This document shows positions 449 through 17,285 of a stretch of 22,775 nt of DNA, one piece after another. Numbering within the stretch: position 1 is the stretch's first letter; each line of letters starts with the position of its first letter. The notes beneath the pieces were generated by a model, which saw nothing but the letters and a program-made list of their open reading frames with translations, ran no database searches and was not told the DNA's origin. The stretch is from IMG/VR virus record IMGVR_UViG_3300013101_000107, positions 1 to 22,775 of that record; one strand, written 5' to 3'. Made by a program: the position numbers and the translations under genes. Source of the DNA: a virus.

Positions 449-464
449 TTACAACTGGTTGTAA
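449..464 (-). promoter_or_regulatory. Palindrome family copy 1, TTACAACCAGTTGTAA on the minus strand
   Basis: Perfect inverted repeat with 7-bp arms (TTACAAC/GTTGTAA) around a central CA when read on the minus strand. It lies between the stop codon of the 54-residue leftward gene (471-473) and the ribosome site of the leftward membrane-protein gene, whose ATG is 15 bp further on. Its CA-centre orientation matches its downstream gene, as in the three plus-strand copies. Function is not known from sequence: operator, promoter element or RNA hairpin are all possible. Confidence 0.7.
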
Positions 465-477
465 GTCGCCTTACAAC
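458..477 (-). repeat. Second inverted repeat overlapping palindrome copy 1
   Basis: On the minus strand GTTGTAAG and CTTACAAC form 8-bp perfect arms around GCGA, a GNRA-type tetraloop if transcribed. The downstream arm is shared with palindrome copy 1, so the region holds three half-sites and two mutually exclusive hairpins. The stop codon of the 54-residue gene (TAA, 471-473) lies inside the upstream arm. Confidence 0.55.
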
Positions 478-635
478 TTATGCTTCCGTCTCCCAGAATC
501 GCCTTGTGCGACACGAGCCGCCGCGGCTTGTGTTCCCTTAACTCCGCGCCCGACACGGGATCGCAAGAACGGCTTGGTCGCCGTCTTAAACGTGGGCGTC
601 GGCGGTAAGTCCTCTTTCTTCACTGGCTTGGCCAT
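471..635 (-). CDS. Small basic protein, 54 residues, unknown function
   Basis: Short leftward frame starting ATG GCC AAG at 635 and ending TAA at 471. It begins MAKPVKKEDLPPTPTF and ends GDSGRRKHKL; the whole is rich in Lys and Arg with an Ala run in the middle, so it could bind nucleic acid, though no family is recognised. Support for coding is a GGAGG 9 bases before the ATG and its place in a leftward operon: its first 50 bp overlap the 3' end of the putative small terminase gene in another frame, and the membrane-protein gene follows. The overlapping half has no independent codon evidence, so confidence is moderate. Confidence 0.55.
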   Translation of the reverse strand: MAKPVKKEDLPPTPTFKTATKPFLRSRVGRGVKGTQAAAARVAQGDSGRRKHKL

Positions 636-1125
636 GGGTGGTGCCTCCATCGATTACGATTGTCTCGGGAGTCGAAGTTGGATTCCCGAGGGTTATGTTG
701 ACGACGAAACGCTCGCCGCCATCACCAGCCAGTTCGGTTTTGTCCATACCGGCCAAGGATTTGAATAATTTTACAGCATCATTACGGGCAGCGGCCGGTA
801 TGCACTTGTCTTGGGCCATAGCGAACTGCGGGATAAGGAGTTCCTCAAGCGCGATGCGCGCCTTTGCTCGGATCCGAGTGTCGGCGTTGTGGTCGCCAGA
901 CCATTCAGCCTTGGCTTCCCGGAGCATTGACTTGAAGATGTCTGACCGTAGAAGGCCGGGGATTTGTTCTGGGGGGATGCTGTGCCGGGCAAATATTTCA
1001 CTGGGCGTGGCCAGCCCAGCCACCAACTCTATGACTAAAGTCGGGGGTATGTTCATGCTTGTGAGCACGCAATTAGGCCCTGCGTCCCCCAAAATTTCCG
1101 ACGGGAATGACGTTGCCGCGCTCAT
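586..1125 (-). CDS. Putative terminase small subunit / DNA-binding protein
   Basis: A 179-residue leftward protein. The frame is open further upstream into the portal gene, but the ATG at 1125 is chosen because AGGTGGAG lies 7 bases before it and upstream residues are nonsense hydrophobic sequence antisense to portal. After a leader (MSAATSFPSEILGDAGPNCV), residues about 27-60 (IPPTLVIELVAGLATPSEIF...LLRSDIFKSML) look like a helix-turn-helix that picks DNA sites. Residues 65-120 are a helical region (IRAKARIALEELLIPQF, RNDAVKLFKSLAGM), and a beta-like tail follows (GERFVVNITLGNPT). This layout resembles small terminase subunits of podoviruses, which recognise packaging sites and recruit the large subunit. 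The assignment rests on remembered family pattern only. It is divergent from portal, with an 81-bp gap. Confidence 0.5.
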   Translation of the reverse strand: MSAATSFPSEILGDAGPNCVLTSMNIPPTLVIELVAGLATPSEIFARHSIPPEQIPGLLRSDIFKSMLREAKAEWSGDHNADTRIRAKARIALEELLIPQFAMAQDKCIPAAARNDAVKLFKSLAGMDKTELAGDGGERFVVNITLGNPTSTPETIVIDGGTTHGQASEERGLTADAHV

Positions 1126-1141
1126 AATTTTACTCCACCTG

Positions 1142-1170
1142 TTGACGTTGACATTAAAATAAACTATTTT
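1142..1170 (+). promoter_or_regulatory. Possible host-type promoter for the portal block
   Basis: In the 81-bp gap between the divergent putative terminase and portal genes, TTGACG (1142-1147) is followed after 17 bp by TATTTT (1165-1170), a fair match to a sigma-70 promoter. GTTGAC is repeated in tandem (1141-1152), and GGGATAA occurs at 1173-1179 and again at 1194-1200, 21 bp apart, about two helical turns. No comparably good promoter is seen on the minus strand. This is pattern matching only. Confidence 0.3.
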
Positions 1171-1206
1171 CGGGGATAAATCCACGCCACCCCGGGATAA
1201 TTTATT

Positions 1207-3294
1207 GTGGGAATACTTCAGGTAGTAGGCCAAGAAGAAACGGCAGCCATCGAAGCCGAGGAAGAATATGCCCTCGATGCGGAAGCCGAAATACAGAACG
1301 GCAACGAACAACTTGCCGTGGATAACCTCGCCGCCTATATAAAGCAACAGTATTACGACTTCCGCTGGCACCGCACCAAAGAACAACTCTACACCCGGTA
1401 TCTCGATAATCTCCGCCAGTACAACGGCCACTACTCCGCCAATGCCCTTGCCGACATTGGCCGGTTCGGTGGCAGCGACATCTACGCCCGGCTGACCGCG
1501 GTCAAGTGCCGGGGTGCTACCGCCCTGCTACGGGACGTTTACCTGTCCGGTGATCGTCCTTGGGAGCTTGACCCCACGCCGGTGCCCACAATCCCTGACT
1601 CCGGTATGCAGGACATCGAGCAGCTTATCCAGATCGAGATCCAGTCCATGCAGCAGATGGGCCAGCCCATCGACGAAGCGGTAGTCCAAGATCGATACAA
1701 ACAACTTCAGGCCTCGATGTATGACGCCATGCGTAAGGAGGCCAAGGTTGCCGCCGGCTACGCCGAGGATAAAGTGGACGATGTTTTGGTGGAGGGTGGG
1801 TTCTATGATGCCTTTTCAGATTTTCTGACTGACATTGCCATCTTCCCGTTTGCCTGCATGAAGGGCCCTGTCGTCCAGAACTCCGTGGAAATGACGTGGA
1901 ACGATACGGGGGAAATGGAAACAACCGTCAAGCCCCGCATGACATGGCGGCGGGTCAGCCCATTTGATGTGTTCTTCTCCCCCGGGGCATCCACCATCGC
2001 TGAGTCCGATGTCATCGAGAGAATCCGACTGCGCCGTGCCGACCTGAACGCATTACTGGGCCTGCCGGGATACAACGACGAGAATATTCGCGCCGCCCTT
2101 AACGACTATGAGCATGGCCTGCACGACTGGCTCGACGATGAAGAGTCCGAGCGAGCCACCGAGGAAGTCAAGGAAGACCCGTACCTTAACCGCTCCGACA
2201 TGATCGATACGCTTGAGTATAACGGTGCAATCAAGGGTAGCTGGCTCCTCGAGTATGGATTTACCGAAGAACAGGTGGACGACCCAGACCGCGATTACTT
2301 CGTAACTGCGTGGATCGTCGGCCAGCACACGATAAAAGTGCAGATCAACCCCAATCCCCTGAAGCGCCACAGCTACTACCTGACCAGCTTCGAGAAGGTG
2401 CCGGGCTCCATTTATGGCAACGCCCTGCCCGAAACCATCCGCGACATCCAAGCCGTGTGCAACGCCTCCCTCCGCTCGCTGGTCAATAATATGTCCATTG
2501 CCAGTGGCCCACAGGTGGTGGTAAACGAGGAGCGACTATCTCCCACAGTAAACGCGGATACGTTGTATCCATGGAAGCGGTGGCGTGTAATCAGTGATCC
2601 GATGGGCGACAACTCCAAGCCCGTTGAGTTCTTCCAGCCACAATCTAATTCGGCTGAGCTGCTGAGCGTGTACAAAGAAATGTCGATAATCGCCGACGAA
2701 GTTTCGGCCATCCCACGGTACATTACTGGCTCTGGTAACGCCTCCGGTGGTGCCGCGTCTACGGCGTCCGGGCTGTCCATGCTGATGAATAACGCCAGCA
2801 AGGTGTTGCAGAACGTGGCGGCCTCGGTCGATAACGACGTGCTGAAGCCGGTGCTGCAAGACCTTTACACCATGGTGATGCTCACCGACGAAACCGGGAT
2901 GCTGCGCGGCGACGAGAAGATAAACGTCCGGGGCGTTACCGTGGCCATGCAACGTGAGACTGACCGCATGCGTAAACTGGAGTTCATGCAGTTGACCATG
3001 AACCCCATCGACCAACAGATTGTGGGCATAAAGGGCCGGGCCTCGATACTCCGGTCACTGGCCAAAGACTTGGGCCTGCCATCCGAAACCATAGTACCAA
3101 GTGAAGCGGACATCCAAGCGCGCATGGATTCCCAAGCGCAAGTCCAACAGGAGGGCGGACTACCCGGCGAGTCGAGCATGGCGGCACAGGGCCAAGGTGC
3201 CCAGCCGCCAGCGCCGGGTAGTACGGGGAAGGGACGGGCCGGAGAAGAGACAGACAATATGATGCGGACGAACCCCGCCGGCTTCAATCCGTAG
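1207..3294 (+). CDS. Portal (head-tail connector) protein
   Basis: 695-residue protein with the look of podovirus portal proteins, which form a dodecameric ring at one capsid vertex through which DNA is packaged and ejected. Key stretches: KCRGATALLRDVYLSGDRPW near residue 100, the WRRVSPFDVFFSPGAS segment near 250, ASLRSLVNNMSIASGPQVVV near 425, IPRYITGSGNASGG then ASTASGLSMLMNNASKVLQN near 500-530, and NPIDQQIVGIKGRASILRSL near 600. The C-terminus is Gln/Gly/Pro rich. The frame has no ATG near its beginning: it starts with GTG at 1207 just downstream of an in-frame TAA (1198), with only GGGA about 10 bases before it as ribosome site. It heads the rightward block and is divergent from the putative small terminase gene. 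Confidence 0.85.
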   Translation: MGILQVVGQEETAAIEAEEEYALDAEAEIQNGNEQLAVDNLAAYIKQQYYDFRWHRTKEQLYTRYLDNLRQYNGHYSANALADIGRFGGSDIYARLTAVKCRGATALLRDVYLSGDRPWELDPTPVPTIPDSGMQDIEQLIQIEIQSMQQMGQPIDEAVVQDRYKQLQASMYDAMRKEAKVAAGYAEDKVDDVLVEGGFYDAFSDFLTDIAIFPFACMKGPVVQNSVEMTWNDTGEMETTVKPRMTWRRVSPFDVFFSPGASTIAESDVIERIRLRRADLNALLGLPGYNDENIRAALNDYEHGLHDWLDDEESERATEEVKEDPYLNRSDMIDTLEYNGAIKGSWLLEYGFTEEQVDDPDRDYFVTAWIVGQHTIKVQINPNPLKRHSYYLTSFEKVPGSIYGNALPETIRDIQAVCNASLRSLVNNMSIASGPQVVVNEERLSPTVNADTLYPWKRWRVISDPMGDNSKPVEFFQPQSNSAELLSVYKEMSIIADEVSAIPRYITGSGNASGGAASTASGLSMLMNNASKVLQNVAASVDNDVLKPVLQDLYTMVMLTDETGMLRGDEKINVRGVTVAMQRETDRMRKLEFMQLTMNPIDQQIVGIKGRASILRSLAKDLGLPSETIVPSEADIQARMDSQAQVQQEGGLPGESSMAAQGQGAQPPAPGSTGKGRAGEETDNMMRTNPAGFNP

Positions 3295-3326
3295 CTTGCA
3301 TAAATGCGGCTGCGGGTGTATATATT

Positions 3327-3348
3327 GGTTTACAACCAGTTGTAAACC
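3327..3348 (+). promoter_or_regulatory. Palindrome family copy 2 (10-bp arms, CA centre)
   Basis: Perfect 22-bp inverted repeat: arm GGTTTACAAC, centre CA, arm GTTGTAAACC. It contains the same 16-bp core as the other three copies (core at 3330-3345). It lies between the portal stop and the small gene at 3367, 18 bp before its ATG, with a TATATT hexamer (3321-3326) immediately upstream that could be a -10 box. The flanking GGT/ACC bases differ from other copies yet still pair. Confidence 0.75.
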
Positions 3349-3366
3349 TTTGCAAAGGAAACTGAA

Positions 3367-3606
3367 ATGATTAACCAATCCATTAAGAAATTAGTCGGCA
3401 CTCCGCACAACTTGAGTGACGGCTCGGGCCAGCGAAAGACGCAGGCTGCCTCGCTCCCGAAGATCGACAGCTCTATTGCGGGCGGTAAATTTACCAGCCA
3501 CCCCAACGCCACGGAGTATGGTGTTGCAGGTATTGGTAAAGATTCTCACAACGCGGGTGGCGGTAGCGGCGGTAGCCGAAGCCAGAACCACGTAGCCAAC
3601 CGATAA
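3367..3606 (+). CDS. Small glycine-rich phage protein, unknown function
   Basis: 79 residues, ATG with AAAGGAA a few bases upstream. The sequence begins MINQSIKKLVGTPHNLSDGS and carries a Gly/Ser tract (NAGGGSGGSRSQN) near the C-terminus; it is basic, hydrophilic and probably largely disordered. It is the first gene after palindrome copy 2 and the first of four small genes between portal and scaffold. No family recognised. Position suggests a minor virion or assembly factor, which is inference. Confidence 0.7.
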   Translation: MINQSIKKLVGTPHNLSDGSGQRKTQAASLPKIDSSIAGGKFTSHPNATEYGVAGIGKDSHNAGGGSGGSRSQNHVANR

Positions 3607-3617
3607 CTGGAGGCCCC

Positions 3618-3881
3618 ATGGAAAACTCTACTGGTTCCAGCCGCGTTTATCCCAAGAAGTCAGTCCACCCAAGCTGCTCCGTAGGCAACTGCGAGCAGAA
3701 ATCCGGATGGCCGTCTGGCGACAAGGTGAACTATCCCGGAGGCGGCCCCTCCGCTACCATCGAAGAAACGGAACGTGCCAAGACGCTGCATTGCGGCGGT
3801 GGCAGCGGTAGCCCGAGTGCGAACTCGTACCCGCCCAAGCGCACCAGCTTCGACACTGAAAAGCATGTGGGAGTAACATAA
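3618..3881 (+). CDS. Small glycine/cysteine-containing phage protein, unknown function
   Basis: 87 residues, ATG preceded by TGGAGG with 4 bases between. Cysteines sit in HPSCSVGNCEQKSGW and in LHCGGGSGSPSANS; the latter Gly/Ser tract resembles the tract in the preceding gene, hinting at a distant relationship or shared linker composition. No transmembrane segment. The stop codon overlaps the next start (TAATG). Function unknown; likely co-expressed with the capsid genes. Confidence 0.7.
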   Translation: MENSTGSSRVYPKKSVHPSCSVGNCEQKSGWPSGDKVNYPGGGPSATIEETERAKTLHCGGGSGSPSANSYPPKRTSFDTEKHVGVT

Positions 3882-4120
3882 TGTCTAAAACCACGTACCC
3901 CAAGCGCGGCAAAAAGCAGTCTCCCGGGGTTCGTACCGTGGCGTCCACCAATCATAGTGAGCGTAATGGGTCGCCGTATTACTTCCGGCCCGAGCTCGGG
4001 GATACTGACGAGGAGCAAATGCTTCGTCGGATGTCCTTCTACGGTAAAGAGTCGCCCGTGGAGGCACCAGATCATCAGGGCGCGTTTGTGAATCCCGCCC
4101 GAACGATGATCCGCGGATGA
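3881..4120 (+). CDS. Small phage protein, unknown function
   Basis: 79 residues beginning MSKTTYPKRGKKQSPGV, a very basic N-terminus, followed by a more acidic centre (ELGDTDEEQMLRRMSFYGK) and ending ARTMIRG. Translationally coupled at both ends: TAATG with the upstream gene and ATGA with the downstream gene. No recognised domain. Context between portal and scaffold suggests a head-assembly or minor virion role, by inference only. Confidence 0.7.
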   Translation: MSKTTYPKRGKKQSPGVRTVASTNHSERNGSPYYFRPELGDTDEEQMLRRMSFYGKESPVEAPDHQGAFVNPARTMIRG

Positions 4121-4350
4121 AGCTGTCTCAGGAGCAGGCTGAGACTTTTAGCACGTTCACCAGCACCCACGCCGGGCAAACATTGCTCAATTACTTGGGG
4201 CAGGTGGCCGAGCAAGAGAACCGGGCGTTAATCGGGGCTAGGGATAATATCCTTCGGCACCAAGGGCGAGTCCAGATGGTGACCCACTTACTGGAAATCA
4301 TACTGGATTCTACAGTCGCTGCGAAGCAATACGAGCAGCCCAAAACTTAG
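4117..4350 (+). CDS. Small helical phage protein, unknown function
   Basis: 77 residues, start overlapping the preceding stop by ATGA. The sequence (MKLSQEQAETFSTFTSTHAG, then LLNYLGQVAEQENRALIG and VQMVTHLLEIILDSTVAAKQ) is predicted by eye to be nearly all alpha-helical. Small helical proteins next to scaffold genes are common in phages, but I cannot name a family. It ends 9 bp before the scaffold start. Confidence 0.75.
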   Translation: MKLSQEQAETFSTFTSTHAGQTLLNYLGQVAEQENRALIGARDNILRHQGRVQMVTHLLEIILDSTVAAKQYEQPKT

Positions 4351-4359
4351 GAGTTGTTG

Positions 4360-5427
4360 ATGGCACTACCAACAGCAGTACAAAAGCAGGTGGACGAGGC
4401 CAACGCCCTCCACGAAAAAATTTATGACGCCGAGGGTAAAGCGGTAGTTCCCGGAACGGAACCTCCCGCAGATCCCCCGACTGATCCGCTCGAGGGTGCG
4501 GCACCGGCAGAGCCGGCAGCCCCAGCAGAGCCGGGGAACGAGGGGGCCAAACTTGAGCTTGCGGCCGCCCCGCAGGTTGAGCCACAAGCCCCTTCCTCGC
4601 CGGAGCCAAAAGCCGAGCCGTGGGAGCAGCGCTACAGCTCCCTCAAGGGCCGCTTTGATGCAGACACCCGCACTATGCGGTCGCAGATTGAAGGGCTTAC
4701 GGAGCAGATACGGTCGCTGAACGCCGCACTGGCCACCAAGCAGGAACCGGAAGCCCCTGCACAGGAAGCCGCCACAGCAGCCGCGACTGCGCGACTACTC
4801 AGCAATGAGGAAGTCGAAGAATACGGCGAGGAGCTTATCGATGTTGTCCAACGGGCAGCCAAGGAAGTTCTTCAGCCAACGATTGATAAACTGACGGAGG
4901 AGAATACGCAGCTCAAAGCCCAGATGGGCCATGTGTCTTCCTCAGTAGTCCAGTCCGAGCGCCAGCAGTTGCTGGACGGAATGGATGGCCAAGTTAAAGG
5001 CTGGCGAGAAGTTAATACCAGCCCGGAGTACCTGCAATGGTTGCAGGCACCCGACCCCTATTCTGGAGAGCAGCGACACGCGCTCCTGAAACGAGCCTTT
5101 GAAAGCAACAGCCTTGCCCGTGTTGCGGCTTTTTTCAAAGGATACCTATCTGAATCAGCCGTATTATCAACCGCTGGACAACAACAAGCCCAACCGCCCC
5201 GGACACCTCCGGTAAGGATGGATACTTTGGTTGCCCCCGGAGCCCCACGAGGGGGCAGTACACCTACTCAGGAAGGCCAAAAGCGTCAATGGACGCAGCC
5301 GCAAATTGCGGAATTTTACCGCAATAAAGCGACCGGCAAATACCGTGGAGAAGCAGGGGCCAAGAAGGCTGCTGCACTGGAAGCGGATATTTTCTCGGCG
5401 CAACGCGAGGGCAGGATAACCCCGTAG
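4360..5427 (+). CDS. Capsid scaffolding protein
   Basis: 355 residues; ATG at 4360 chosen over the in-frame TTG at 4354 because TAGGAG (4348-4353) then sits 6 bases upstream. Scaffold proteins line the inside of the procapsid and leave on maturation. Support: position directly before the major capsid gene, no recognisable enzyme motif, an acidic Pro/Ala/Glu-rich N-terminal half (residues about 25-90, PEPKAEPWEQRYSSLKGRFD at its end), long coiled-coil-like helices (residues about 90-210, e.g. IEGLTEQIRSLNAALATKQE and TEENTQLKAQ), and a basic C-terminal region with RNKATGKYRGEAGAKKAAAL, as expected for a coat-binding tail. Sequence identity to known scaffolds was not tested. Confidence 0.8.
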   Translation: MALPTAVQKQVDEANALHEKIYDAEGKAVVPGTEPPADPPTDPLEGAAPAEPAAPAEPGNEGAKLELAAAPQVEPQAPSSPEPKAEPWEQRYSSLKGRFDADTRTMRSQIEGLTEQIRSLNAALATKQEPEAPAQEAATAAATARLLSNEEVEEYGEELIDVVQRAAKEVLQPTIDKLTEENTQLKAQMGHVSSSVVQSERQQLLDGMDGQVKGWREVNTSPEYLQWLQAPDPYSGEQRHALLKRAFESNSLARVAAFFKGYLSESAVLSTAGQQQAQPPRTPPVRMDTLVAPGAPRGGSTPTQEGQKRQWTQPQIAEFYRNKATGKYRGEAGAKKAAALEADIFSAQREGRITP

Positions 5428-5447
5428 CCTACTAGGAGTACTATCGC

Positions 5448-6401
5448 ATGTCATATCCTACAACTGCCACAGTCAGCCCCGGTAACGGCGTTGGCGCGGT
5501 GGCACCCAACACCGCCTACTCCGGCGTCTTCATCCCAGAAATTTGGGCCGGCAAAATCGTAGAGAAATTCTACGACGCCACTGTATTGGCGGCTATTTCC
5601 AATACTGACTACGAAGGCGAGATCAAGAACAAAGGCGACAAGGTAAACATCCGCACCAAGCCGACCATCACAATCTCTGATTATGTGGCCGACCAAACGC
5701 TGGACGTTGAACGCCCCAGTTCCGACCTCGAAACTCTGTTGATCGACAAGGGTAAGTATTTCAATACCATCCTTGATGACGTCATGGAAGTTCAGTCGGA
5801 TTTGAATCAGCTCAGCATGTGGGCGGACGATGCCTCCGAGCAGATGAAGATCGTGATCGACACCGACGTGCTGGCTTATATCCCCGGCCAGATCCCCATC
5901 GCTGCCAACGGAAACCAAGGCGATAGCTGTGGCCGTATCTCCGGCAACATCGACCTCGGTATCACCGCGACCCCGCGTGCGGTTCTCCCGGCTGACGTTA
6001 TTGACCTCGTGGTTGATATGGGTCAGGTGCTGGACGAGCAGAACATCCCGGAATCCGGCCGCTGGCTGGTTATCCCTGCGTGGATGGCGGCAATGATTAA
6101 GAAATCAGAGCTGCGGGACGCCTCACTGGTTGGTGACGGCACTTCCATGCTGCGTAACGGCCGCTTGGGTATGATCGATCGATTTACGGTCTATCTGTCC
6201 AACCTGCTTCCGCTGTCTGGCGTTGAAACCAGCGTTATGGCTGGCCACAGTGTAGGCCTTACCTTCGCATCCCAGCTTACCAAAGTTGAGACGTTGCGAG
6301 GCGAGTCCTACTTCGGCACCTACCTGCGAGGCTTGCAGGTTTATGGCCGAAGCGTAATCGATCCCACGGCTATCACCGTAGCGATTGCAACTAAAGGCTA
6401 A
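5448..6401 (+). CDS. Major capsid protein
   Basis: 317 residues with AGGAG 9 bases before the ATG. It follows scaffold, as is usual for the major coat protein of tailed phages (HK97 fold). Recognisable features are an N-terminal region with FIPEIWAGKIVEKFYDATVL, DYEGEIKNKGDKVNIRTKPT (E-loop-like strand region), a spine-helix-like acidic stretch around residues 110-140 (DDVMEVQSDLNQLSMWADDA), RWLVIPAWMAAMIKKSELRD in the A-domain, and a C-terminal beta region (SQLTKVETLRGESYFGTYLR). Codon use is strongly biased, as expected for a highly expressed gene. Palindrome copy 3, the largest of the family, follows 11 bp after the stop. Confidence 0.9.
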   Translation: MSYPTTATVSPGNGVGAVAPNTAYSGVFIPEIWAGKIVEKFYDATVLAAISNTDYEGEIKNKGDKVNIRTKPTITISDYVADQTLDVERPSSDLETLLIDKGKYFNTILDDVMEVQSDLNQLSMWADDASEQMKIVIDTDVLAYIPGQIPIAANGNQGDSCGRISGNIDLGITATPRAVLPADVIDLVVDMGQVLDEQNIPESGRWLVIPAWMAAMIKKSELRDASLVGDGTSMLRNGRLGMIDRFTVYLSNLLPLSGVETSVMAGHSVGLTFASQLTKVETLRGESYFGTYLRGLQVYGRSVIDPTAITVAIATKG

Positions 6402-6412
6402 GCAGTAGTACC

Positions 6413-6446
6413 CGAGGGGAGTTACAACCAGTTGTAACTCCCCTCG
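6413..6446 (+). promoter_or_regulatory. Palindrome family copy 3: 34-bp perfect inverted repeat after the capsid gene
   Basis: Arms of 16 bp (CGAGGGGAGTTACAAC and its exact complement) around the central CA. It contains the family core at 6422-6437 with 9 more pairing bases per arm. As RNA this would be a very stable hairpin at the end of the capsid message, a site where T7-like phages carry their late terminator, but the bases after it (ATTCATCC) are not a U-tract, so it is not a textbook rho-independent terminator. The right arm (CTCCCCTC) is also partly complementary to the ribosome site at 6463-6470. Confidence 0.75.
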
Positions 6447-6471
6447 ATTCATCCAAATCCCCGGAGGGAGC

Positions 6472-6795
6472 ATGCTAAAATTACGTAGTCGCAAGACCCA
6501 AGGAATTCACGGCTGGTGCCAAGCAATGGCAGCACAGCCCGAAGTGTACGACCAAGTGAAAGTGAACAAGGATTTAGTTGTGACGCACGTACTGTACGAT
6601 GACGTGTGGCATCCATCTGCTGGTGCGATTCCTGCGGATATAAGTACCGACGTCGAGCAGCCCATGATGAAATCTGCCATGGGCAAGCGGAAGGCAAAGA
6701 AAGCCCGGCCCCCAAAAACAGTAGTTACTTCGGATGCAGCTCCCGTAGACTCGCTGTTTGACGATTTAGGAAGCAATGATGGTAACGATAGCTGA
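6472..6795 (+). CDS. Phage protein, 107 residues, unknown function
   Basis: ATG with a strong GGAGGGAG just upstream, the first gene after palindrome copy 3. The N-terminal part (MLKLRSRKTQGIHGWCQAMA, then VTHVLYDDVWHPSAGAIP) appears folded; the C-terminal third is a Lys/Arg-rich segment (MGKRKAKKARPPKTVV) followed by an acidic tail (DSLFDDLGSNDGNDS). Its end overlaps the next gene by 20 bp in another frame. No family recognised; position between capsid and head-tail connector suggests a minor virion protein, by inference. Confidence 0.75.
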   Translation: MLKLRSRKTQGIHGWCQAMAAQPEVYDQVKVNKDLVVTHVLYDDVWHPSAGAIPADISTDVEQPMMKSAMGKRKAKKARPPKTVVTSDAAPVDSLFDDLGSNDGNDS

Positions 6796-7147
6796 TGCTA
6801 TTACCCAATCACGGCAAATAATTCAGGATACCCGCGAACCTTACCGGAATTCTGATTCTAAGCTGGTAGGGTATTTCAACAACGCGATTCTGGACGCATT
6901 CAACCTGCGTCCCGATTTGTTCCTCGTCCCCGGTGAAGTCGGGGCCACTTGGAACGACCCCACCACCTACACCGAAACTGACATAACTGGTGGCACAGAG
7001 TTTCCCGTGCCTGCCCAGTATTTCGCTGCGTTTGTGGAATACGTGGCCGGATACGTTGGCACAGGGGACGATGAATTTGTGTTGGATCAACGTGCCGGCA
7101 TACTGCTTACCCGGTTTATCCAGAAACTTAAAATGGGGCAAGCGTAA
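6776..7147 (+). CDS. Head-tail adaptor protein (phage adaptor, DUF6682-like)
   Basis: 123 residues. The N-terminal pattern (MMVTIADAITQSRQIIQDTR, then EPYRNSDSKLVGYFNNAILD and FNLRPDLF) matches my memory of a conserved phage adaptor family near portal and capsid genes, whose all-helical proteins join the portal ring to the tail. The C-terminal helix RAGILLTRFIQKLKMGQA fits. Two adjacent ATGs (6776, 6779) follow TTTAGGA; either could serve. The stop overlaps the next start as TAATG, so it is coupled to the connector gene. Family name is from memory, not search. Confidence 0.6.
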   Translation: MMVTIADAITQSRQIIQDTREPYRNSDSKLVGYFNNAILDAFNLRPDLFLVPGEVGATWNDPTTYTETDITGGTEFPVPAQYFAAFVEYVAGYVGTGDDEFVLDQRAGILLTRFIQKLKMGQA

Positions 7148-7845
7148 TGGGTGCCACCACGGTAGACATCAACATCTGGGCGGACGAGCTTATGACCTCC
7201 GTCTCAGGCTGTACCTCCGCCGGGGCCAAGCAGGCGCTTAAAGCCACGCTTCGGGAGTTCAACGTACAGTCCGCGGCGTGGGTGCGGGAGCTGCGACCGA
7301 TAAGCATCAAGGCCAACAAGGCGGATTACTTTCTTGACCCGCAACCGGATTCCGCCATCCTCTATATTCTGGCCATCGATTACCTACAGCCTAATCCGAA
7401 TGACTCATCCGATGCCAACCAGAACGGACGCTTTACACGCCGGCTGGTGCCCATGCAAGTCCCTACCATACGCAATCGCCAACGGACACCGGCAGCCGAG
7501 CCTGCGTGGTACGCCGGCGATGCTGAGGTACCGGGGAAGTTCACGTTGCTGCCCACGGTCGACCGGGATATTGACGACTGCATGTATTGCTACGTGGCCC
7601 TGACAATGAAGGAACCATGGGATGGGCGAGTTCCCTACACCTACGAGCGGTATCACTTCGACAAGATCCTCGACGGGGCCACAGGTCGCCTGTTCAGCCA
7701 GCCCGGCAAGCCCTATACCAACCCCAAGATGGCACAATATCACCTGCGGCGGTTCCGCAACGGTATGGCTCAAGCGCGGGATATGGCCCAAAGGCAATTC
7801 AATAAGTCCGGCAACGATTTCATCTACCCCCGGTGGGCCGTATGA
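7147..7845 (+). CDS. Head-tail connector / tail tubular A-like protein
   Basis: 232 residues, start overlapping the upstream stop (TAATG). The arrangement is that of connector proteins placed after the adaptor: an N-terminal helix pair (GAKQALKATLREFNVQSAAW), a beta region (KANKADYFLDPQPDSAILYI), LPTVDRDIDDCMYCYVALTM, and the conserved-looking stretch FDKILDGATGRLFSQPGKPY followed by RRFRNGMAQARDMAQRQFNK. In podoviruses such proteins form the ring below the portal where tail hub and fibres attach. It ends in an ATGA overlap with the next gene. Functional call is by family pattern and position. Confidence 0.65.
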   Translation: MGATTVDINIWADELMTSVSGCTSAGAKQALKATLREFNVQSAAWVRELRPISIKANKADYFLDPQPDSAILYILAIDYLQPNPNDSSDANQNGRFTRRLVPMQVPTIRNRQRTPAAEPAWYAGDAEVPGKFTLLPTVDRDIDDCMYCYVALTMKEPWDGRVPYTYERYHFDKILDGATGRLFSQPGKPYTNPKMAQYHLRRFRNGMAQARDMAQRQFNKSGNDFIYPRWAV

Positions 7846-8240
7846 ACCAGCTTTACAACAAAGCGCGGGAGCGGTACCTAGGGGGCGTCTCTGACTGGAA
7901 AGTGGGGGCCATGGGTATCGCGTTGGTCGATGCAAATTATACGTTCGATCCCACGCATGAATTCCTCGTCCAAGTGGCCTCCAGTTCCCGGGCAGCCGAG
8001 AAGGATTTCACTGGACGAACCGACGCAGATGGATATGCGAACGGCCTAGGGGTGAGCTTCACAGCCCTCACATGGCCGCTGCCAATTACGCAGGTCGTAA
8101 TTTTTGAGAACACTGGAGACGAGGCCACGGATTTACTCGTGGCGTATTACGACGAGGTTACAGGGTTCCCGGTGGATCTTACCGGGGGTGATTATTCAGT
8201 GCTGCCCGATGCACTGTTCGGCGGGTACTTCCGGCTGTGA
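7842..8240 (+). CDS. Conserved phage structural protein, unknown function
   Basis: 132 residues; ATG at 7842 overlaps the preceding stop (ATGA) and is preferred to an in-frame GTG at 7833. It starts MNQLYNKARERYLGG and ends with AYYDEVTGFPVDLTGGDYSV and GGYFRL, a pattern I associate with small proteins found between connector and fibre genes in many podoviruses. The fold is probably beta-rich. It is likely a virion component near the tail, but a specific role cannot be read from sequence. Confidence 0.65.
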   Translation: MNQLYNKARERYLGGVSDWKVGAMGIALVDANYTFDPTHEFLVQVASSSRAAEKDFTGRTDADGYANGLGVSFTALTWPLPITQVVIFENTGDEATDLLVAYYDEVTGFPVDLTGGDYSVLPDALFGGYFRL

Positions 8241-8701
8241 TAGGTGAGATCAATGGTCAGGCGATCAATACTGAACTACCTCTTAACGGGTTGTCGCCTC
8301 GTGTTAAGCTTATTGTTGTTGGCTTTACTGACAGCGCTTTTTCCGCTCGTGGCGTTGAGTTTTTGTCTGGTTTTCCTGTTGTCGGTTTTACCTCCTCCAC
8401 CTTCTCGCCCCCGTACCTCTGGGACGAAAGGCGTAATAGCCAAGTATCGGAGTTTTGTTCACCGGTTTTTCAGGCGGTTTTCCCTAGCAGCGAGTGTAAA
8501 ACCGAGTTCCTTAGCGCCCCGGTTTCCGAAATTGAAACCTTCAACAGCCAAGATATATTTATGGACTTCACGAGCGAACCGACCCAAAAACTTTGGGAGT
8601 TCTCCAGCGTCCCACGCCAAGAGATCATTGATGGATACCTTGAAGAAGACATCGTCGAATTTGACAGCATACCCAACGTCAACACAAGGGGAGAGTGCTG
8701 A
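8237..8701 (+). CDS. Beta-rich phage structural protein, GTG start
   Basis: 154 residues starting GTG at 8237 in a GTGA overlap with the upstream stop. The N-terminus MIGEINGQAINTELPLNG resembles a conserved INGxxINxxPLNG-type opening of small phage virion proteins. The rest is an irregular array of short hydrophobic/acidic strands (VVGFTDSAFSARGVEFLSGF, VSEFCSPVFQ, LWEFSSVPRQEIIDGY). Between 8279 and 8389 the codons end in T in 24 of 37 cases, very unlike neighbouring genes; a second frame with an encoded hydrophobic segment overlaps here. Its stop overlaps the next start as TGATG. Function unknown. Confidence 0.65.
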   Translation: MIGEINGQAINTELPLNGLSPRVKLIVVGFTDSAFSARGVEFLSGFPVVGFTSSTFSPPYLWDERRNSQVSEFCSPVFQAVFPSSECKTEFLSAPVSEIETFNSQDIFMDFTSEPTQKLWEFSSVPRQEIIDGYLEEDIVEFDSIPNVNTRGEC

Positions 8702-8726
8702 TGCTAATCGGCCGAGTAAACCTTAG
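8253..8726 (+). CDS. Possible overprinted membrane protein (alternative frame)
   Basis: A 157-codon frame nested in the preceding gene and running 25 bp into the next. ATG at 8253 has AGGTGA (8242-8247) 5 bases upstream, a better ribosome site than that of the main frame. Residues about 6-50 are very hydrophobic (LLTGCRLVLSLLLLALLTAL, then FPLVALSFCLVFLLSVL), enough for one long or two short membrane segments, followed by PPPP and a strongly basic tail (IAKYRSFVHRFFRRF). This could be a small membrane protein such as a holin, but the T-ending codons of the main frame would by themselves create Leu/Val-rich sequence in this frame. Treat as a candidate only. Confidence 0.2.
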   Translation: MVRRSILNYLLTGCRLVLSLLLLALLTALFPLVALSFCLVFLLSVLPPPPSRPRTSGTKGVIAKYRSFVHRFFRRFSLAASVKPSSLAPRFPKLKPSTAKIYLWTSRANRPKNFGSSPASHAKRSLMDTLKKTSSNLTAYPTSTQGESADANRPSKP

Positions 8727-9003
8727 CACTGTCCAGAAGCGGATATTCCGCATAAACTATCCATGGCTCCGGGACGGAGAAACGGTTGTTTCAGCGGTGC
8801 CCACTGTGGAGCCCAACGATGGCCTGTTCACCGTATCCGACCTGATTATCGGGGTCGATGGGGATTACGTGCAGTTCAAGGCGTCTGGAAACGGGGTAGT
8901 CGAGGGTGGATCAGAATACACTGTGTCCGTCGTCGTCGATACCTCAGACGGACAGACCAATGATGACTGCCTTGAGTACCAGATTGAGGATTGCTGCCCA
9001 TGA
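8701..9003 (+). CDS. Fibre-tail adaptor protein (Ig-like)
   Basis: 100 residues, ATG at 8701 with AGGGGAG 7 bases upstream, overlapping the previous stop (TGATG); an in-frame GTG at 8695 is less likely. The pattern INYPWLRDGETVVSAVPTVE, GLFTVSDLIIGVDGDYVQFK, GGSEYTVSVVVDTSDGQTND fits one Ig-like beta-sandwich, as in small adaptor proteins that join phage fibres to the tail. It precedes the fibre genes directly and ends in an ATGA overlap with the next gene. The call is from remembered pattern and position. Confidence 0.65.
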   Translation: MLIGRVNLSTVQKRIFRINYPWLRDGETVVSAVPTVEPNDGLFTVSDLIIGVDGDYVQFKASGNGVVEGGSEYTVSVVVDTSDGQTNDDCLEYQIEDCCP

Positions 9004-9365
9004 CACAGAAATTTACGAACAACGCGAGCACCACGCTGGCTAATTCCATATCTGCGATCACCACGTCGATACTGGTTACGGATGGCTCCGGCTTTCCTAC
9101 CGTCAATGGCGCTGATCCTGATGATTTCTCCATGTGTACACTGGAGAACTCTTCAGGGTTATTCGAGATAGTTAAAGTAACGGAGCACACTAGCGGTTCT
9201 GCCGTGTTCGTTGTTGTCCGTGCCCAAGAAGGTACGGGGGTTGACCCTGACGTAGAGGGCTATGCCTACGCCACCAGCGATCGGTACGAGCTACGCCTCA
9301 CTGCCGGAGCCATGAACGAATTTCTGCAACGTAGCGGCGACACCGTAGACGGTGGGGTGTACTGA
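9000..9365 (+). CDS. Fibre-attachment domain protein, stand-alone
   Basis: 121 residues; ATG at 9000 overlaps the previous stop (ATGA), with GAGGA 9 bases upstream. It consists of essentially one domain: FTNNASTTLANSISAITTSI, FSMCTLENSSGLFEIVKVTE, VVVRAQEGTGVDP, YELRLTAGAMNEFLQRSGDT. The same order of motifs (EIVKVT, then VRGQE/VRAQE, then a MTAGT/LTAGA helix) opens the long fibre protein encoded next, so the two are paralogues. This domain probably docks fibres to the tail. The stop overlaps the fibre start (TGATG). Whether it caps the fibre, competes with it or forms a second attachment ring cannot be told. Confidence 0.7.
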   Translation: MTQKFTNNASTTLANSISAITTSILVTDGSGFPTVNGADPDDFSMCTLENSSGLFEIVKVTEHTSGSAVFVVVRAQEGTGVDPDVEGYAYATSDRYELRLTAGAMNEFLQRSGDTVDGGVY

Positions 9366-12259
9366 TGACTCAGGTATGGGTCAACAATTACACCGCCTTG
9401 CTTACCGCCGCCTTAGCTGCGGTGGACACAGTAATGGAGGTAACCTCTGCCCCGACTATTACCCTCGGGGTGGATGAATACCTGTTGATGACGCTGGAAG
9501 ATGCCAATAATCCAGCAAGGGTAGAGATCGTAAAGGTAACGGCCATAGCCGGGGATGTGTTGACCATAGTCCGTGGCCAAGAGAACACGCTGGCGCAGGC
9601 TTACCTCCTAGACGACATCGTTCAGGGCCGCATGACTGCCGGGACGTTGGATGGCATGCTACAGAAGGTCGGTGGCGATATGTCGGGCGTCATCGACATG
9701 GGAGGTAACTGGATAACAGGCCTGCCAACCGGCGACCCCCCAGCCGGGGATCACGCCGTGTCGTCCAACTATGCCAACAAGAAAGAGCCGGTAATAACCG
9801 GACTGCTCAACGGTGGGGAAATTTCCCTGTCCAGTTCCACCGAGATACTAGTGGCCGAGGGTTTCGGTGACATAATCGACCCCTACACGGATCAGGACAA
9901 CCCAGCTACTACGCAGGTAGGGTGGGCCACCCAAGTCATTACTGTACCCGGCCTTACTACAGATGGCAGCACCCACGTATTTATAAACGAGCTTGGGGAT
10001 GTGGAGTTCCGCACCGGCCGGCTTACGCCCACGGAAACCCGCACGCTTATCCGCCTAGGGTTGGCCTACCACTCCACTGGTCAACTGGTTTCGGTCTACG
10101 CCGAGCCAAATGTGACCTCGCAGAACGGGCCCCTGTTATACGACTTCATAAATTTCGTATCCAATACTGCCCGGATTAACGGCGGGTTTGTTAAGCCCCA
10201 GCCGGCGGGCAACTTGAAGTTGGTCCGCGATCTGGTCAGTTCGTTCGTACCCGGGGGGTCGTGGTTTGTAAATCGCGAGGATCCGAATACTCGAGAATAC
10301 CCGATTGCCGACCCGGCCTTGATGCGGTACGTAGACCGGGACGGGGTACTGACCGATGGCCTTGGCGGCCAAACCGATCTGGTTGACCCCACCCGCTGGG
10401 ATAACAACGGCGTAGTTGAGACTGTGCCCAACCCCGGCAGCCGTACCACCATCCAATACTTGTTTATGATGCCGTCCGGCAACCACTTGATTCAGTGGGG
10501 GCAGGAGGTGTACAGCAATCTAGCGGCGGCCGTGGACGCTTCTGGCCAAGACTTGGCCGAGTTCGTGCCAGCCCTCGGGTCGGATGACGGGTTCCTGCTC
10601 GCACAGATACTCGTGGAGAAAGGAGCGTCGGATCTCACGAATGCTGGGCAGGCGCAGATATTTAACACCCGGGTCGGCTATTCCGGTGGCTCCTCCTCTG
10701 GCCTGTACGTGCTACGGTCAGGCGATGCTATGACCGGGGAGCTGATGCTACCGGGGGTTCCAGTCGACCCTCTAGCGGCCACAGACAAGACTTACGTGGA
10801 CGATGCTGACGGTATATTGGCCGGCGACATAAGCACCAACGCCGGGAACATCAGCACCAACGCCGGGAACATCAGCACCAATACGGGTGACATAAGTACC
10901 AACGCCGGGAACATAAGCACCAATACCGGGAACATCGGCATAAACGCCGGGAACATAAGCACCAACGCCGGCAACATATCGGACAACGCTTCCGACATAG
11001 TTACCAATGCCTCGGCCATAACGAATCTGGGTAATACCAAGCTCAATCTGACCGGCGGAACCCTAACGGGCCCACTGGGTACTACGTCCACCATAAACGC
11101 GACCAACGGCGGCATTACTTCCGGTAGTACCCCGCTTGCCGCAGATGCCGGGATTGCCGTCTTAAACCAACACGGCGGCTTCCAGCTTAACGTGTCTGAG
11201 GGGTTCCTCGGCCTTGGGGCTATATTCCAGCTAAACAACCTAGGCGGCTTTGACGCCTATGCCATGCAGTTCGAGCGTAATGGGCCTACCCATTTTTTCC
11301 ATGCGGGTACACACATTGGCGGTACCAGTGCTGAAGGGCTGGTGGGGGGCGCCATTGGCCTGACGGCTGGCGGTTTGCGGTGCCTGTCTTCGGGCGGAAG
11401 TATGCGCCAAGCCGTGGATTCCACCGGCACTACTTGGTTCCAACAGCAGACGACTGCTGGCGTCCACGAAGCCCACATCATGCGGTTCATTAAAGACGCA
11501 TACATCGAATTTTATGACGCTGGCCGCATAGAACTGCGAACCGATCAAGAAGGCATTCTCGTTGGCCACCACACGTACAACTTGGATCAGGGCGTCAAGG
11601 TACTGAACGCCTTGGGTGGCGTTGAGCTCTATAACAACGGCCCCACGGGTAACGGCGGAATACTGCAAACGTCTGCTACTGGCGTCTACGAAAAAACGTG
11701 GATGGACTTCACCCGCGACGGCCAGTGTCAGATGTTTAACGACAACCTGCACGTGGCGAGCACTACATCATCGGGCTTCGAGGTACACGGCAAACTTGTA
11801 GCTACAGCTCCCACGGCGGAGAACTACGCGGCGCAATTTGTCCAGCCCGACGGTGCCCCTATCTACAATATAGTGGATGTAGTATTGGGCACTACGGTTG
11901 TTGGTGGCTGGAGTACAGTTGGTAGGGTCATGAGCTGGGGGCCACTGGAAGACCTGTCGGCATCCGATGAACGTACTAAGACCGATATGGTAGACATACC
12001 CTATGGACTTGATACTATCTTGGCGCTCAAGCCCATCCGGTTTAAATACAAAGACGAGTTTGCACTGGGGCCAAACCACCACCGGCTTGGATTCGGAGCC
12101 AACCATTCCCGGCTGGTATGCGACGACCTGCATTACGAATTGAAAGATGACCGCATGCCTGATGGTGTGCGACACGGGGTTCAAGAGTCCAGTGTCGTAC
12201 CGATACTGGTTAGAGCCGTTCAGGAGTTGACTGCGCGAGTGGAAGCCCTTGGCGGATAA
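9365..12259 (+). CDS. Tail fibre with C-terminal S74 self-cleaving chaperone
   Basis: 964 residues. Order: attachment domain (about 1-100, with EIVKVTAIAGDVLTIVRGQE and RMTAGTLDGML); a GGDMSGVIDMGGNWITGLPT linker with SSNYANKK; a beta-rich section to about 455; a second linker (SGDAMTGELMLPGVPVDPLA, KTYVDDADG); nine to ten heptads near 487-556 forming a trimeric coiled coil; a long beta section with repeated FNDNLHV- and YNNGPTG-like elements; and an S74-type intramolecular chaperone from Ser867 (SDERTKTD) to the end, including LALKPIRFKYK, RLGFGANHSRLV and VQELTARVEALGG. In such proteins the chaperone helps trimerise the fibre then cuts itself off before the Ser; Ser867 and Lys872 match the catalytic dyad. 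Binds the host surface. Confidence 0.9.
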   Translation: MTQVWVNNYTALLTAALAAVDTVMEVTSAPTITLGVDEYLLMTLEDANNPARVEIVKVTAIAGDVLTIVRGQENTLAQAYLLDDIVQGRMTAGTLDGMLQKVGGDMSGVIDMGGNWITGLPTGDPPAGDHAVSSNYANKKEPVITGLLNGGEISLSSSTEILVAEGFGDIIDPYTDQDNPATTQVGWATQVITVPGLTTDGSTHVFINELGDVEFRTGRLTPTETRTLIRLGLAYHSTGQLVSVYAEPNVTSQNGPLLYDFINFVSNTARINGGFVKPQPAGNLKLVRDLVSSFVPGGSWFVNREDPNTREYPIADPALMRYVDRDGVLTDGLGGQTDLVDPTRWDNNGVVETVPNPGSRTTIQYLFMMPSGNHLIQWGQEVYSNLAAAVDASGQDLAEFVPALGSDDGFLLAQILVEKGASDLTNAGQAQIFNTRVGYSGGSSSGLYVLRSGDAMTGELMLPGVPVDPLAATDKTYVDDADGILAGDISTNAGNISTNAGNISTNTGDISTNAGNISTNTGNIGINAGNISTNAGNISDNASDIVTNASAITNLGNTKLNLTGGTLTGPLGTTSTINATNGGITSGSTPLAADAGIAVLNQHGGFQLNVSEGFLGLGAIFQLNNLGGFDAYAMQFERNGPTHFFHAGTHIGGTSAEGLVGGAIGLTAGGLRCLSSGGSMRQAVDSTGTTWFQQQTTAGVHEAHIMRFIKDAYIEFYDAGRIELRTDQEGILVGHHTYNLDQGVKVLNALGGVELYNNGPTGNGGILQTSATGVYEKTWMDFTRDGQCQMFNDNLHVASTTSSGFEVHGKLVATAPTAENYAAQFVQPDGAPIYNIVDVVLGTTVVGGWSTVGRVMSWGPLEDLSASDERTKTDMVDIPYGLDTILALKPIRFKYKDEFALGPNHHRLGFGANHSRLVCDDLHYELKDDRMPDGVRHGVQESSVVPILVRAVQELTARVEALGG
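10823..11032 (+). repeat. 21-bp coding repeat, heptad array in the tail fibre
   Basis: About ten tandem 21-bp units encoding G-(N/D)-I-S-T-N-(A/T), degenerating at the right end (SDNASDI, VTNASAI). An Ile and an Asn recur at coiled-coil core positions, as in trimeric phage fibre stalks. Early units are nearly identical at the DNA level (AACATCAGCACCAACGCCGG), so unit number could change by slippage and alter stalk length. Confidence 0.85.
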
Positions 12260-12277
12260 CTAAAGTGGAGCACACTT

Positions 12278-12688
12278 ATGAAAGTACGTCCTTTAGGCCT
12301 TACAGATTTTATGAGCAATGGTACGCAAATAGGGGAGTGGATGGATGGCATCGTCAAACATTCCCATGGAGAATTTACCACCGACGAATTGAAGCAGGTG
12401 ATCGAGCGAGGTAGCCACCACGCATGGGCATGGTGTGAAGACGGGGGCGCGGTAGTAGGCATGTTTGTCACTACTGTGGTTTCCTATTCAGGCGATAAAT
12501 GCCTATCGATAATTGGTGCAGCGGGAAGCGTTCAGGATGCTTGGGACGAGGCTTCGGATATTTTGATGGGCATGGCCAAGCACATGGAATGCGTAACCGC
12601 AGAGATACGGGGCCGGGAGGGATTCGCTAAACGATTTAAGAATTCGGGCTGGGAGCTAAAATACGTTACACTCAGCAAAGCAGTATAG
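12278..12688 (+). CDS. GNAT-like acetyltransferase-fold protein
   Basis: 136 residues, ATG with GTGGAG upstream, 18 bp after the fibre stop. It begins MKVRPLGLTDFMSNGTQIGE and has WAWCEDGGAVVGMFVTTVVS (central strands) and a C-terminal KHMECVTAEIRGREGFAKRF then GWELKYVTLSKAV, a layout typical of the small GNAT-like proteins phages carry within virion-gene blocks. A clear acetyl-CoA-binding R/QxxGxG/A loop is not visible, so it may not be catalytic. Palindrome copy 4 starts 2 bp after its stop. Substrate unknown; a link to the adjacent fibre is suggested only by position. Confidence 0.55.
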   Translation: MKVRPLGLTDFMSNGTQIGEWMDGIVKHSHGEFTTDELKQVIERGSHHAWAWCEDGGAVVGMFVTTVVSYSGDKCLSIIGAAGSVQDAWDEASDILMGMAKHMECVTAEIRGREGFAKRFKNSGWELKYVTLSKAV

Positions 12689-12690
12689 GG

Positions 12691-12706
12691 TTACAACCAG
12701 TTGTAA
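12691..12706 (+). promoter_or_regulatory. Palindrome family copy 4, TTACAACCAGTTGTAA
   Basis: Exact 16-bp core with 7-bp arms and CA centre. It starts 2 bp after the stop of the GNAT-like gene and ends 12 bp before the ATG of the next gene, immediately 5' of its GCGGAG ribosome site. TATAGG (12684-12689) overlaps the stop codon just upstream and could serve as a weak -10 box. Orientation agrees with the downstream gene. Confidence 0.75.
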
Positions 12707-12718
12707 GCGGAGTAAAGC

Positions 12719-13384
12719 ATGTCGGTAACCATCACCACAAGGTACTCGGAAATCCCCGGCGCCCAGCCGTCCTCACTTGTAGAGGGCGAACTGGCCATAG
12801 ACATTACCCCCGGCCGGGGCAAAGTATACTACGGCAATAATGTCGCCGGCGTAGATGTTATCGCCCAGCAGCCGTACGTCTCTAACTCCGTCGTGCCCCC
12901 TGTGGCGGGAGAGCCAAAGCCCGGGGCCCTCTGGTGGCAGCCGGATAAGAAAGCGCTCATGTTCACCGCGGACGGGGTTACATTTGAATCCGGAGCGGTG
13001 CCGCCGACTGGCGGAACCTTTGAAGGGCACGTTGCCGTGGAATTCGGAGCGTTCACTTATGTTGAAACCGCGGATGATGTGGATGGCCAAGGTGGCCCGG
13101 GAGTGTATTCCGAAGGCTGGTTTGTATCAGAACTGGGACTGGTCACCAACGGTGATCTCCTTGTCGGAGGTGCGGCTAATGTCACCGGGCAATTGCAATC
13201 TGATGGCCAGTTCGTGGCTGTCGGTGCCGCCATATTCTTCGGGGACGTTGTGAAGTATGCTGGGGGATCATTTACACACTATGAGGACGCTGGCTTTTCT
13301 AGTGGTACGATCACAGTTAGTACCGGCGGCCCCCCGAGTTCCGGCATGGTAGCCGGCGATGTTCACTACACCATAGAGCCCTGA
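12719..13384 (+). CDS. Putative tail fibre / fibre-associated protein
   Basis: 221 residues; ATG with GCGGAG 6 bases upstream, directly behind palindrome copy 4. The N-terminal stretch QPSSLVEGELAIDITPGRGK and VYYGNN is the kind of GELAxNxxxGxxYxG opening seen in many phage fibre or fibre-like proteins. A Pro/Gly-rich linker follows, and residues about 100-200 are beta-rich repeats (VAVEFGAFTYVETADD, LVTNGDLLVGGAANVTGQLQ, AIFFGDVVKYAGGSF). No catalytic motif. Probably a second, short fibre or fibre tip; this is inferred from composition and its place next to the long fibre gene. Confidence 0.55.
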   Translation: MSVTITTRYSEIPGAQPSSLVEGELAIDITPGRGKVYYGNNVAGVDVIAQQPYVSNSVVPPVAGEPKPGALWWQPDKKALMFTADGVTFESGAVPPTGGTFEGHVAVEFGAFTYVETADDVDGQGGPGVYSEGWFVSELGLVTNGDLLVGGAANVTGQLQSDGQFVAVGAAIFFGDVVKYAGGSFTHYEDAGFSSGTITVSTGGPPSSGMVAGDVHYTIEP

Positions 13385-16728: not shown

Positions 16729-17285
16729 GCAAGAGCAAAGGCACGTATTACGGCTTGGAGCCAAAGGCGCATTTTAACTATATTATCGGCATGGAACGCA
16801 TGTCCGAAATGCTGCCGGAGATCAGAAAATTACATGGGGAGCATTGGGATGAAACTGAGGTGCTATACCTCGATGACCCGATGAACCCAGACTACGAAAT
16901 GATGGAGTACCTTGAGCAGAACGCTCGGATGTTGTGCTTTACGGTGCGGGATGGGAGGGGAAACATGGTAGGGAATTCCATGTTCTTTCTGGCCCACTCC
17001 ACGCACATCAAAAACGTGTTGCAGGCCACAGAGGATACGTTCTTCTTATCCAAGAACCACCGGGGAGGGGGCCTTGCTGGAGCTTTCATAGTTTACATCG
17101 AGGCGTACCTCAAGAACCTCGGGGTCGTCTATATGGGCATGAGCGACAAGTCACCCTGCGGGGGCAAGTCTTTGCAGCGCCTGATGGAAGCTAACGGATT
17201 TAAGCAAATAGCTGTACACTACACCAAGAAGATAGGCGAGATACCCCCGGAGGTTAGTCCCGATGAAACTCCCCCAACAGCTTAG
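16725..17285 (+). CDS. GNAT-family acetyltransferase-like protein
   Basis: 186 residues, ATG in an ATGA overlap and preceded by GGGGGAG. The layout fits GNAT folds: an N-terminal helix (MSEMLPEIRKLHGEHWDE), the strand pair MLCFTVRDGRGNMVGNSMFF, then FFLSKNHRGGGLAGAFIVYI, in which HRGGGLAG resembles the acetyl-CoA pyrophosphate loop (R/QxxGxG/A), followed by VVYMGMSDKSPCGGKSL and a C-terminal FKQIAVHYTKKI. A disordered Pro/Glu tail (EIPPEVSPDETPPTA) ends the protein. Its last 32 bp overlap, antisense, the 3' end of the HNH endonuclease gene. Substrate unknown; possibly a virion or host component. Confidence 0.65.
   Translation: MSKSKGTYYGLEPKAHFNYIIGMERMSEMLPEIRKLHGEHWDETEVLYLDDPMNPDYEMMEYLEQNARMLCFTVRDGRGNMVGNSMFFLAHSTHIKNVLQATEDTFFLSKNHRGGGLAGAFIVYIEAYLKNLGVVYMGMSDKSPCGGKSLQRLMEANGFKQIAVHYTKKIGEIPPEVSPDETPPTA

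Follow-up and report, generated by a model that had tools for sequence, protein, structure and literature searches.

Repeated palindromes in a phage late-gene fragment as candidate dispersed operators of a phage-encoded regulator

Four identical palindromes lie in short gaps along a phage late-gene fragment, and we consider it somewhat probable that they are dispersed, stoperator-like operators, that is, double-stranded DNA sites of a regulator encoded by the phage itself. The fragment, which we call the window (the whole stretch of 22,775 nt that was analyzed), is a 22.8-kb late-gene piece without the early region. The 16-mer TTACAACCAGTTGTAA occurs exactly four times in it, at 449-464 on the minus strand and at 3330-3345, 6422-6437 and 12691-12706 on the plus strand, as a preliminary description had reported, and no further place in the window matches it with three or fewer mismatches. 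Shuffled sequence gave a mean of 0.06 matches, and no 16-mer exceeded two occurrences in Markov-1 simulations.

Copy 1 (449-464) is an exact match in a gap between leftward ORFs, 15 nt before the ATG of the leftward gene 2-433. Copy 2 (3330-3345) follows the portal gene and lies 21 nt before the ATG of 3367-3606. Copy 3 (6422-6437) lies 20 nt past the major capsid stop codon and 34 nt before the next start, and copy 4 (12691-12706) lies 2 nt past the stop of 12278-12688 and 12 nt before the ATG of 12719-13384. The earlier observations on placement were reproduced: all four copies lie in short gaps, 12-34 nt before a start codon, and the central CA points along the downstream gene in each of them, the leftward one included, although this orientation is weak evidence by itself (P=0.125). 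The arms are palindromic in every copy, the asymmetry is confined to the center, and perfect extension of the arms, also part of the original account, was found to 10 bp around copy 2 (3327-3348) and to 16 bp around copy 3 (6413-6446). An extra half-site, GTTGTAA (TTACAAC on the plus strand), which the original account did not mention, occurs at 471-477 on the minus strand and overlaps the stop codon of the ORF 471-650 (minus strand). It competes with copy 1 in the predicted RNA fold and may be a coincidence.

The portal and capsid proteins of the window match those of Rhizobium phage RHph_TM3_14A (RHph below) at 50% and 62%, respectively, and those of HMO-2011-type phages remotely. The genes diverge: leftward runs an apparent terminase small-subunit gene (TerS), and the rightward genes follow the order portal, scaffold-like, capsid, head-tail, tail-fiber and internal virion proteins, with a giant virion protein at 20451. 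The divergent TerS/portal gap, where this layout predicts late promoters, has no copy of the palindrome, which places the four copies in the interior of operons. Because promoter matches in the window were at chance level, the placement of the late promoters rests on the layout. The earlier notion that the palindromes mark block boundaries therefore stands in the sense of interior operon gaps and fails in the sense of promoters. Three other features of the window were recorded. An HNH homing-endonuclease-like gene at 17254-17781 on the minus strand (Pfam HNH_3, E 3e-8, plus a weak Arm-DNA-binding match) runs against the surrounding late genes and is probably a selfish insertion. The tail-fiber gene holds about ten 21-bp tandem units at 10799-11029, with the protein repeat NAGNISTN, and this array is likely length-variable. 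Lastly, 18-bp tandem repeats at 19190-19279 give a proline/glycine-rich stretch in the virion protein 18855-20435.

We examined 80 related loci fetched by capsid protein. Many carry repeated palindromes of their own (GTTACC-N5/6-GGTAAC, TTACCC, TTACCT), and the part that these share is TTAC-N8-GTAA or TTAC-N7-GTAA. When all 256 four-base inverted repeats were ranked at spacings 6 to 9 in 67 relatives (809 kb, with the obvious GTTACC-type records left out), TTAC/GTAA came top, with 46 copies at N8 and 34 at N7 versus 5.4 expected and without excess at N6 or N9. Contigs in which the framework occurs hold 5 to 64 copies of TTAC-N7/8-GTAA. Exact copies number 46 in RHph, 64 in G035, 49 in G043 and 39 in G042, against approximately 1-2 expected per genome, and with up to one mismatch tolerated among the 12 arm bases G035 reaches 78 sites; the other relatives and the window have fewer copies than these four. 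A permissive palindrome count was dropped, as GC-rich words dominated it.

The word in the window reads TTAC-AACCAGTT-GTAA. Its framework and length are those of the relatives and its inner bases differ: the inner base pairs are AA in the window and mostly CC, CT, TC or TT in the relatives. The framework was recognized with the window's word in view, so that the 1/256 chance of an outer match is a guide and not a test. Copies in the window number only four and do not differ even at the center, whereas those of the relatives vary. There are five TTAC-N8-GTAA matches in the window versus a background of 0.42; one of them, a weak match at 2723-2738 on the plus strand inside the portal gene, lacks inner pairing and is probably due to chance (background about 0.4 per spacing). 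Taken as sequences, these words suggest that the 16-mer of the window belongs to a lineage-wide array. Among other viral contigs the exact 16-mer was found only in L086, a second contig of the window's phage (99.9% identical), and as scattered single matches, and the TTACAAC palindrome is absent from the closest capsid relatives (L005, L006, L008 and L009). L364, in which the arms occur twice but which shows no protein similarity, was set aside. HMO-2011 shows no TTAC-N7/8-GTAA excess and no array, and several capsid relatives have no repeated palindrome or have other words. G003 (L249/L250) carries four copies of GTGACG-N5-CGTCAC and G025 (L251/L252) five copies of CCACCT-N4-AGGTGG, which are perhaps arrays with different arms.

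A candidate binder emerged from gene distribution. The uncharacterized protein f1 (approximately 220-274 aa; EVB41_028 in RHph, early in the rightward early operon) was found in 8 array genomes and in 0/10 array-free contigs. With the same threshold for both groups, f1 was the sole family to score 10/10 in array genomes and 0/10 in array-free contigs. Six of those ten array genomes came through f1 or share its contig, and most of the array-free contigs are incomplete. A more independent test of the link used ten additional contigs that f1 alone had fetched: all ten have TTAC-N7/8-GTAA above background (4 to 18 per fetched stretch), and in eight of them a site precedes the f1 match by no more than about 150 nt. 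In the reverse search, contigs fetched by the palindrome pattern alone included two further array fragments with f1 (L170 and L230). A site is found 6 to 45 nt upstream of f1 in RHph, G035, G005, G010, G013 and G029, and divergent f1 homologues occur in G027 and G028, contigs without the TTAC array. We infer that a protein binds the 16-mer, with f1 as the candidate. No larger contig was found for the early region of the window's phage, so f1, like any other regulator, is unproven in this phage. In Pfam, PHROGs and solved structures f1 has no informative match, and it has no recognizable DNA-binding domain. Its structure model is all helical (pLDDT 85.6), and a fold search with this model returned no solved structure above the noise for helical proteins; rows that likened residues 115-177 to sigma/TFIIB were weak (Z 4 or less) and were set aside.

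Other proteins considered as binders were rejected. Tandem-HTH proteins of RHph, G035 and G005 are absent from the other array genomes, and the distribution of an AlpA-like HTH protein (G015, G020, G029) is too patchy. By eye, the protein at RHph 34654-34968 looks like a winged-helix protein; 8/10 array genomes encode it, but it has no Pfam match. A scan of the small proteins of two relatives found no XRE-type repressor. The tandem-HTH proteins are of resolvase type with two or three units (L119 24216-24767, plus strand; L241 8490-9578, plus strand; L243 698-1387, minus strand) and are confined to three GTTACC-type records. We also noted many small paralogous early proteins with 'AMLLG...DADTMEP' motifs in RHph and G035 (L119 21650-25026 and L241 9565-13200). 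The RHph gene 42239-45322 (L120 11840-14923), annotated as 'putative integrase', matches DUF927 (E 1e-20); it seems to encode a primase/helicase-type protein, which would make the annotation wrong.

The array and f1 also occur in a bacterial genome. In contig C166 of Bradyrhizobium sp. 139, the first 24 kb contain 16 sites and a phage early region that includes f1. A large serine recombinase lies at 23486-25165 (Pfam Recombinase and Resolvase), and after it come chromosomal genes, with 0 sites in the next 35 kb. The remaining half of the phage is found close to the end of contig C111 of the same strain, and the two contigs (L306-L310) look like an integrated prophage cut by contig ends. Sites are not enriched in the host chromosome and are concentrated on these two prophage-bearing contigs. 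CtrA, a host regulator, has sites with the motif TTAA-N7-TTAA. Such sites occur in alphaproteobacterial phages (PMC9437464). The sites described here do not fit this motif: their arms are TTAC/GTAA, and they are concentrated on the two prophage-bearing contigs.

The gap enrichment proposed as a check in the preliminary description was borne out: in a set of 13 records to which the window belongs, gaps hold the centers of 95 of 233 sites, versus 28.7 expected. The gene calls behind this count were home-made; in RHph they agree with GenBank at 83 of 89 stop codons. Approximately 60% of the relatives' array sites are inside genes, many of them deep inside and on both strands. With the window counted, 24 of 83 loci have a TTAC-N7/8-GTAA site in the 90 nt that follow the capsid gene, versus 1.4 expected; no such excess was seen among the loci after the portal gene, where the window alone has a site. 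Tests of spacing in three GTTACC-type records showed sites more evenly placed than expected by chance (RHph, P 0.0055; G035, P below 0.0005; G005, P 0.01), and in the same records the right arm often doubles as a ribosome site. The spacers of the relatives are biased in orientation (22:8 in gaps and 25:4 in genes), for which constraints from ribosome sites and codons could account.

One could read the palindromes as operators or activator sites at internal late promoters, which would control initiation without any block to elongation. The location of the window's copies shortly before start codons and at the starts of gene blocks would fit, as would the site before f1 in the relatives' early operon. 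We regard this reading as unlikely, because none of the four 16-mers is among the sigma-70-like promoter matches of the window scan, the TerS/portal gap where a late promoter is expected is empty, and many of the relatives' sites are deep within genes. Nor is any of the four among the intrinsic-terminator matches (GC-rich stem plus T run) of the window scan; the original judgment that the element is neither a standard sigma-70 promoter nor a U-tract terminator was thus upheld.

We hold it quite unlikely that the palindromes are RNA hairpins acting in mRNA as processing, stability or attenuation structures. All four copies of the window lie in transcribed gaps in identical orientation, and copy 3 sits at the tip of a strong post-capsid RNA hairpin of 15-16 bp (6413-6446, plus strand; -26.9 kcal/mol, z -8.3). 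The other three copies, however, are not significantly stable (z -1.0 to -1.8), and for two of them the predicted fold lacks the palindrome hairpin (that of copy 2 is absent from the minimum-energy fold). Selection for pairing, as suggested earlier, is accordingly supported at the post-capsid site and not at the other three. An RNA stem would favor G-U mismatches and longer stems. Among 190 sites in four array genomes, the bases just outside the core pair in 24% versus 25% for shuffled flanks, and sense-strand arm mismatches comprise 35 G-U and 41 A-C. Unpaired flanks and A-C mismatches as frequent as G-U, together with the share of array sites that lie within genes, argue for double-stranded protein-binding sites and against RNA hairpins. 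Directly after the capsid gene, a strong GC-rich hairpin that lacks a T run is present in most relatives, and the sequences of these hairpins are unrelated (post-capsid gap, L011-L084). The post-capsid hairpin is a conserved RNA feature in its own right, and the extension at 6413-6446 therefore reflects a second, RNA-level feature that encloses the site.

A role in DNA organization (partition, condensation, packaging or self-recognition) with no direct part in transcription would suit the even spacing of the relatives' sites and their presence within genes, and the repeats of Cluster O mycobacteriophages were likewise judged unrelated to initiation (PMC4351075). We consider this highly unlikely, given the enrichment of sites in gaps, after the capsid gene and upstream of f1, and the location of all four window copies in gaps. 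We give very little credence to promoters of a phage RNA polymerase, such as the hairpin promoters of an N4-type virion polymerase, an earlier suggestion in keeping with identical gene-oriented elements before genes and with the giant virion protein at 20451 but not supported here: PF00940 (single-subunit, T7-type RNA polymerase) matched none of nine related long genomes while the T7 positive control matched, for the related virion protein of 2307 aa the matches were to pyrophosphatase and polyvalent-protein models, with no polymerase domain reported (the models run were not N4-specific), and the relatives' sites lie within genes on both strands.

Of the three hypotheses in the preliminary description, the operator of a phage regulator fits best, as the relatives' sites behave as double-stranded DNA sites. 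In the dispersed-operator reading that we prefer, the regulator would act as a dimer or via paired DNA-binding domains, and the four palindromes would be the window phage's version of the lineage's dispersed TTAC-N7/8-GTAA array, with specificity set by the inner base pairs. For a regulator on palindromes scattered over interior gaps, silencing of transcription is the best explanation, and such silencing has been proposed for Cluster A stoperators. Most likely, protein bound in the interior gaps of the late operons would block elongating host RNA polymerase, and the same regulator would repress early genes in the part of the genome outside the window. By this analogy, we infer that binding silences transcription.

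CI-type phage operators (lambda, 434) are palindromes of about 14-18 bp with a variable center, bound by dimers, and they are few and clustered at promoters. The sites described here resemble them in palindromic form, length and variable center, but dozens are spread over the genome. The nearest match in form is found in Cluster O mycobacteriophages (Corndog and relatives), which carry over 30 copies per genome of the 17-bp repeat TGTTCGG-NNN-CCGAACA, located in gaps and partly in genes, with little link to promoters and a predicted dimeric binder (PMC4351075). Both are short exact palindromic repeats that lie partly in genes, with more than 30 copies in the richest relatives here. The Cluster O repeats differ in their arms (TGTTCGG) and shorter 3-bp spacer, and they belong to unrelated phages with no known lysogens, whereas here a candidate protein and an integrated prophage go with the array, whose inner bases vary between phages. 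The stoperators of Cluster A (L5, TipsytheTRex) are 13-bp asymmetric sites that are bound by a two-domain monomer and must face transcription (PMC9283540). Likenesses to them are the many sites in short gaps along the relatives' genomes, the location of the window's four copies in gaps alone, the temperate lineage and a specificity that varies among relatives. In contrast to stoperators, the sites here are palindromic, and no homologue of the Cluster A repressor was recognized; because the asymmetry is missing, we offer 'works like' stoperators and not membership in that class. The start-associated sequences of Cluster K, as outlined in PMC4351075, are repeats near translation starts, which recalls the frequent overlap of the right arm with the ribosome site, but most copies here are not closely tied to starts, and they are palindromic.

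We found no report of TTAC-N7/8-GTAA arrays in open-access full text. Most known genome-wide repressor arrays come from actinobacterial phages, and their layout has been described mainly in mycobacteriophages. We tentatively propose, as a possibility that we do not favor strongly, a stoperator-like immunity system outside that group: in temperate rhizobial podophages, the prophage would be silenced by f1, an all-helical protein of no recognized family, on dozens of palindromes, and diverging specificity would define immunity groups. The lineage offers arrays of many specificities together with a co-occurring candidate binder, and the isolated phage RHph_TM3_14A and prophage-bearing Bradyrhizobium strains make the role of the array directly testable. 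What palindromic arrays of the Cluster O type do is thus a question that this rhizobial lineage could address.
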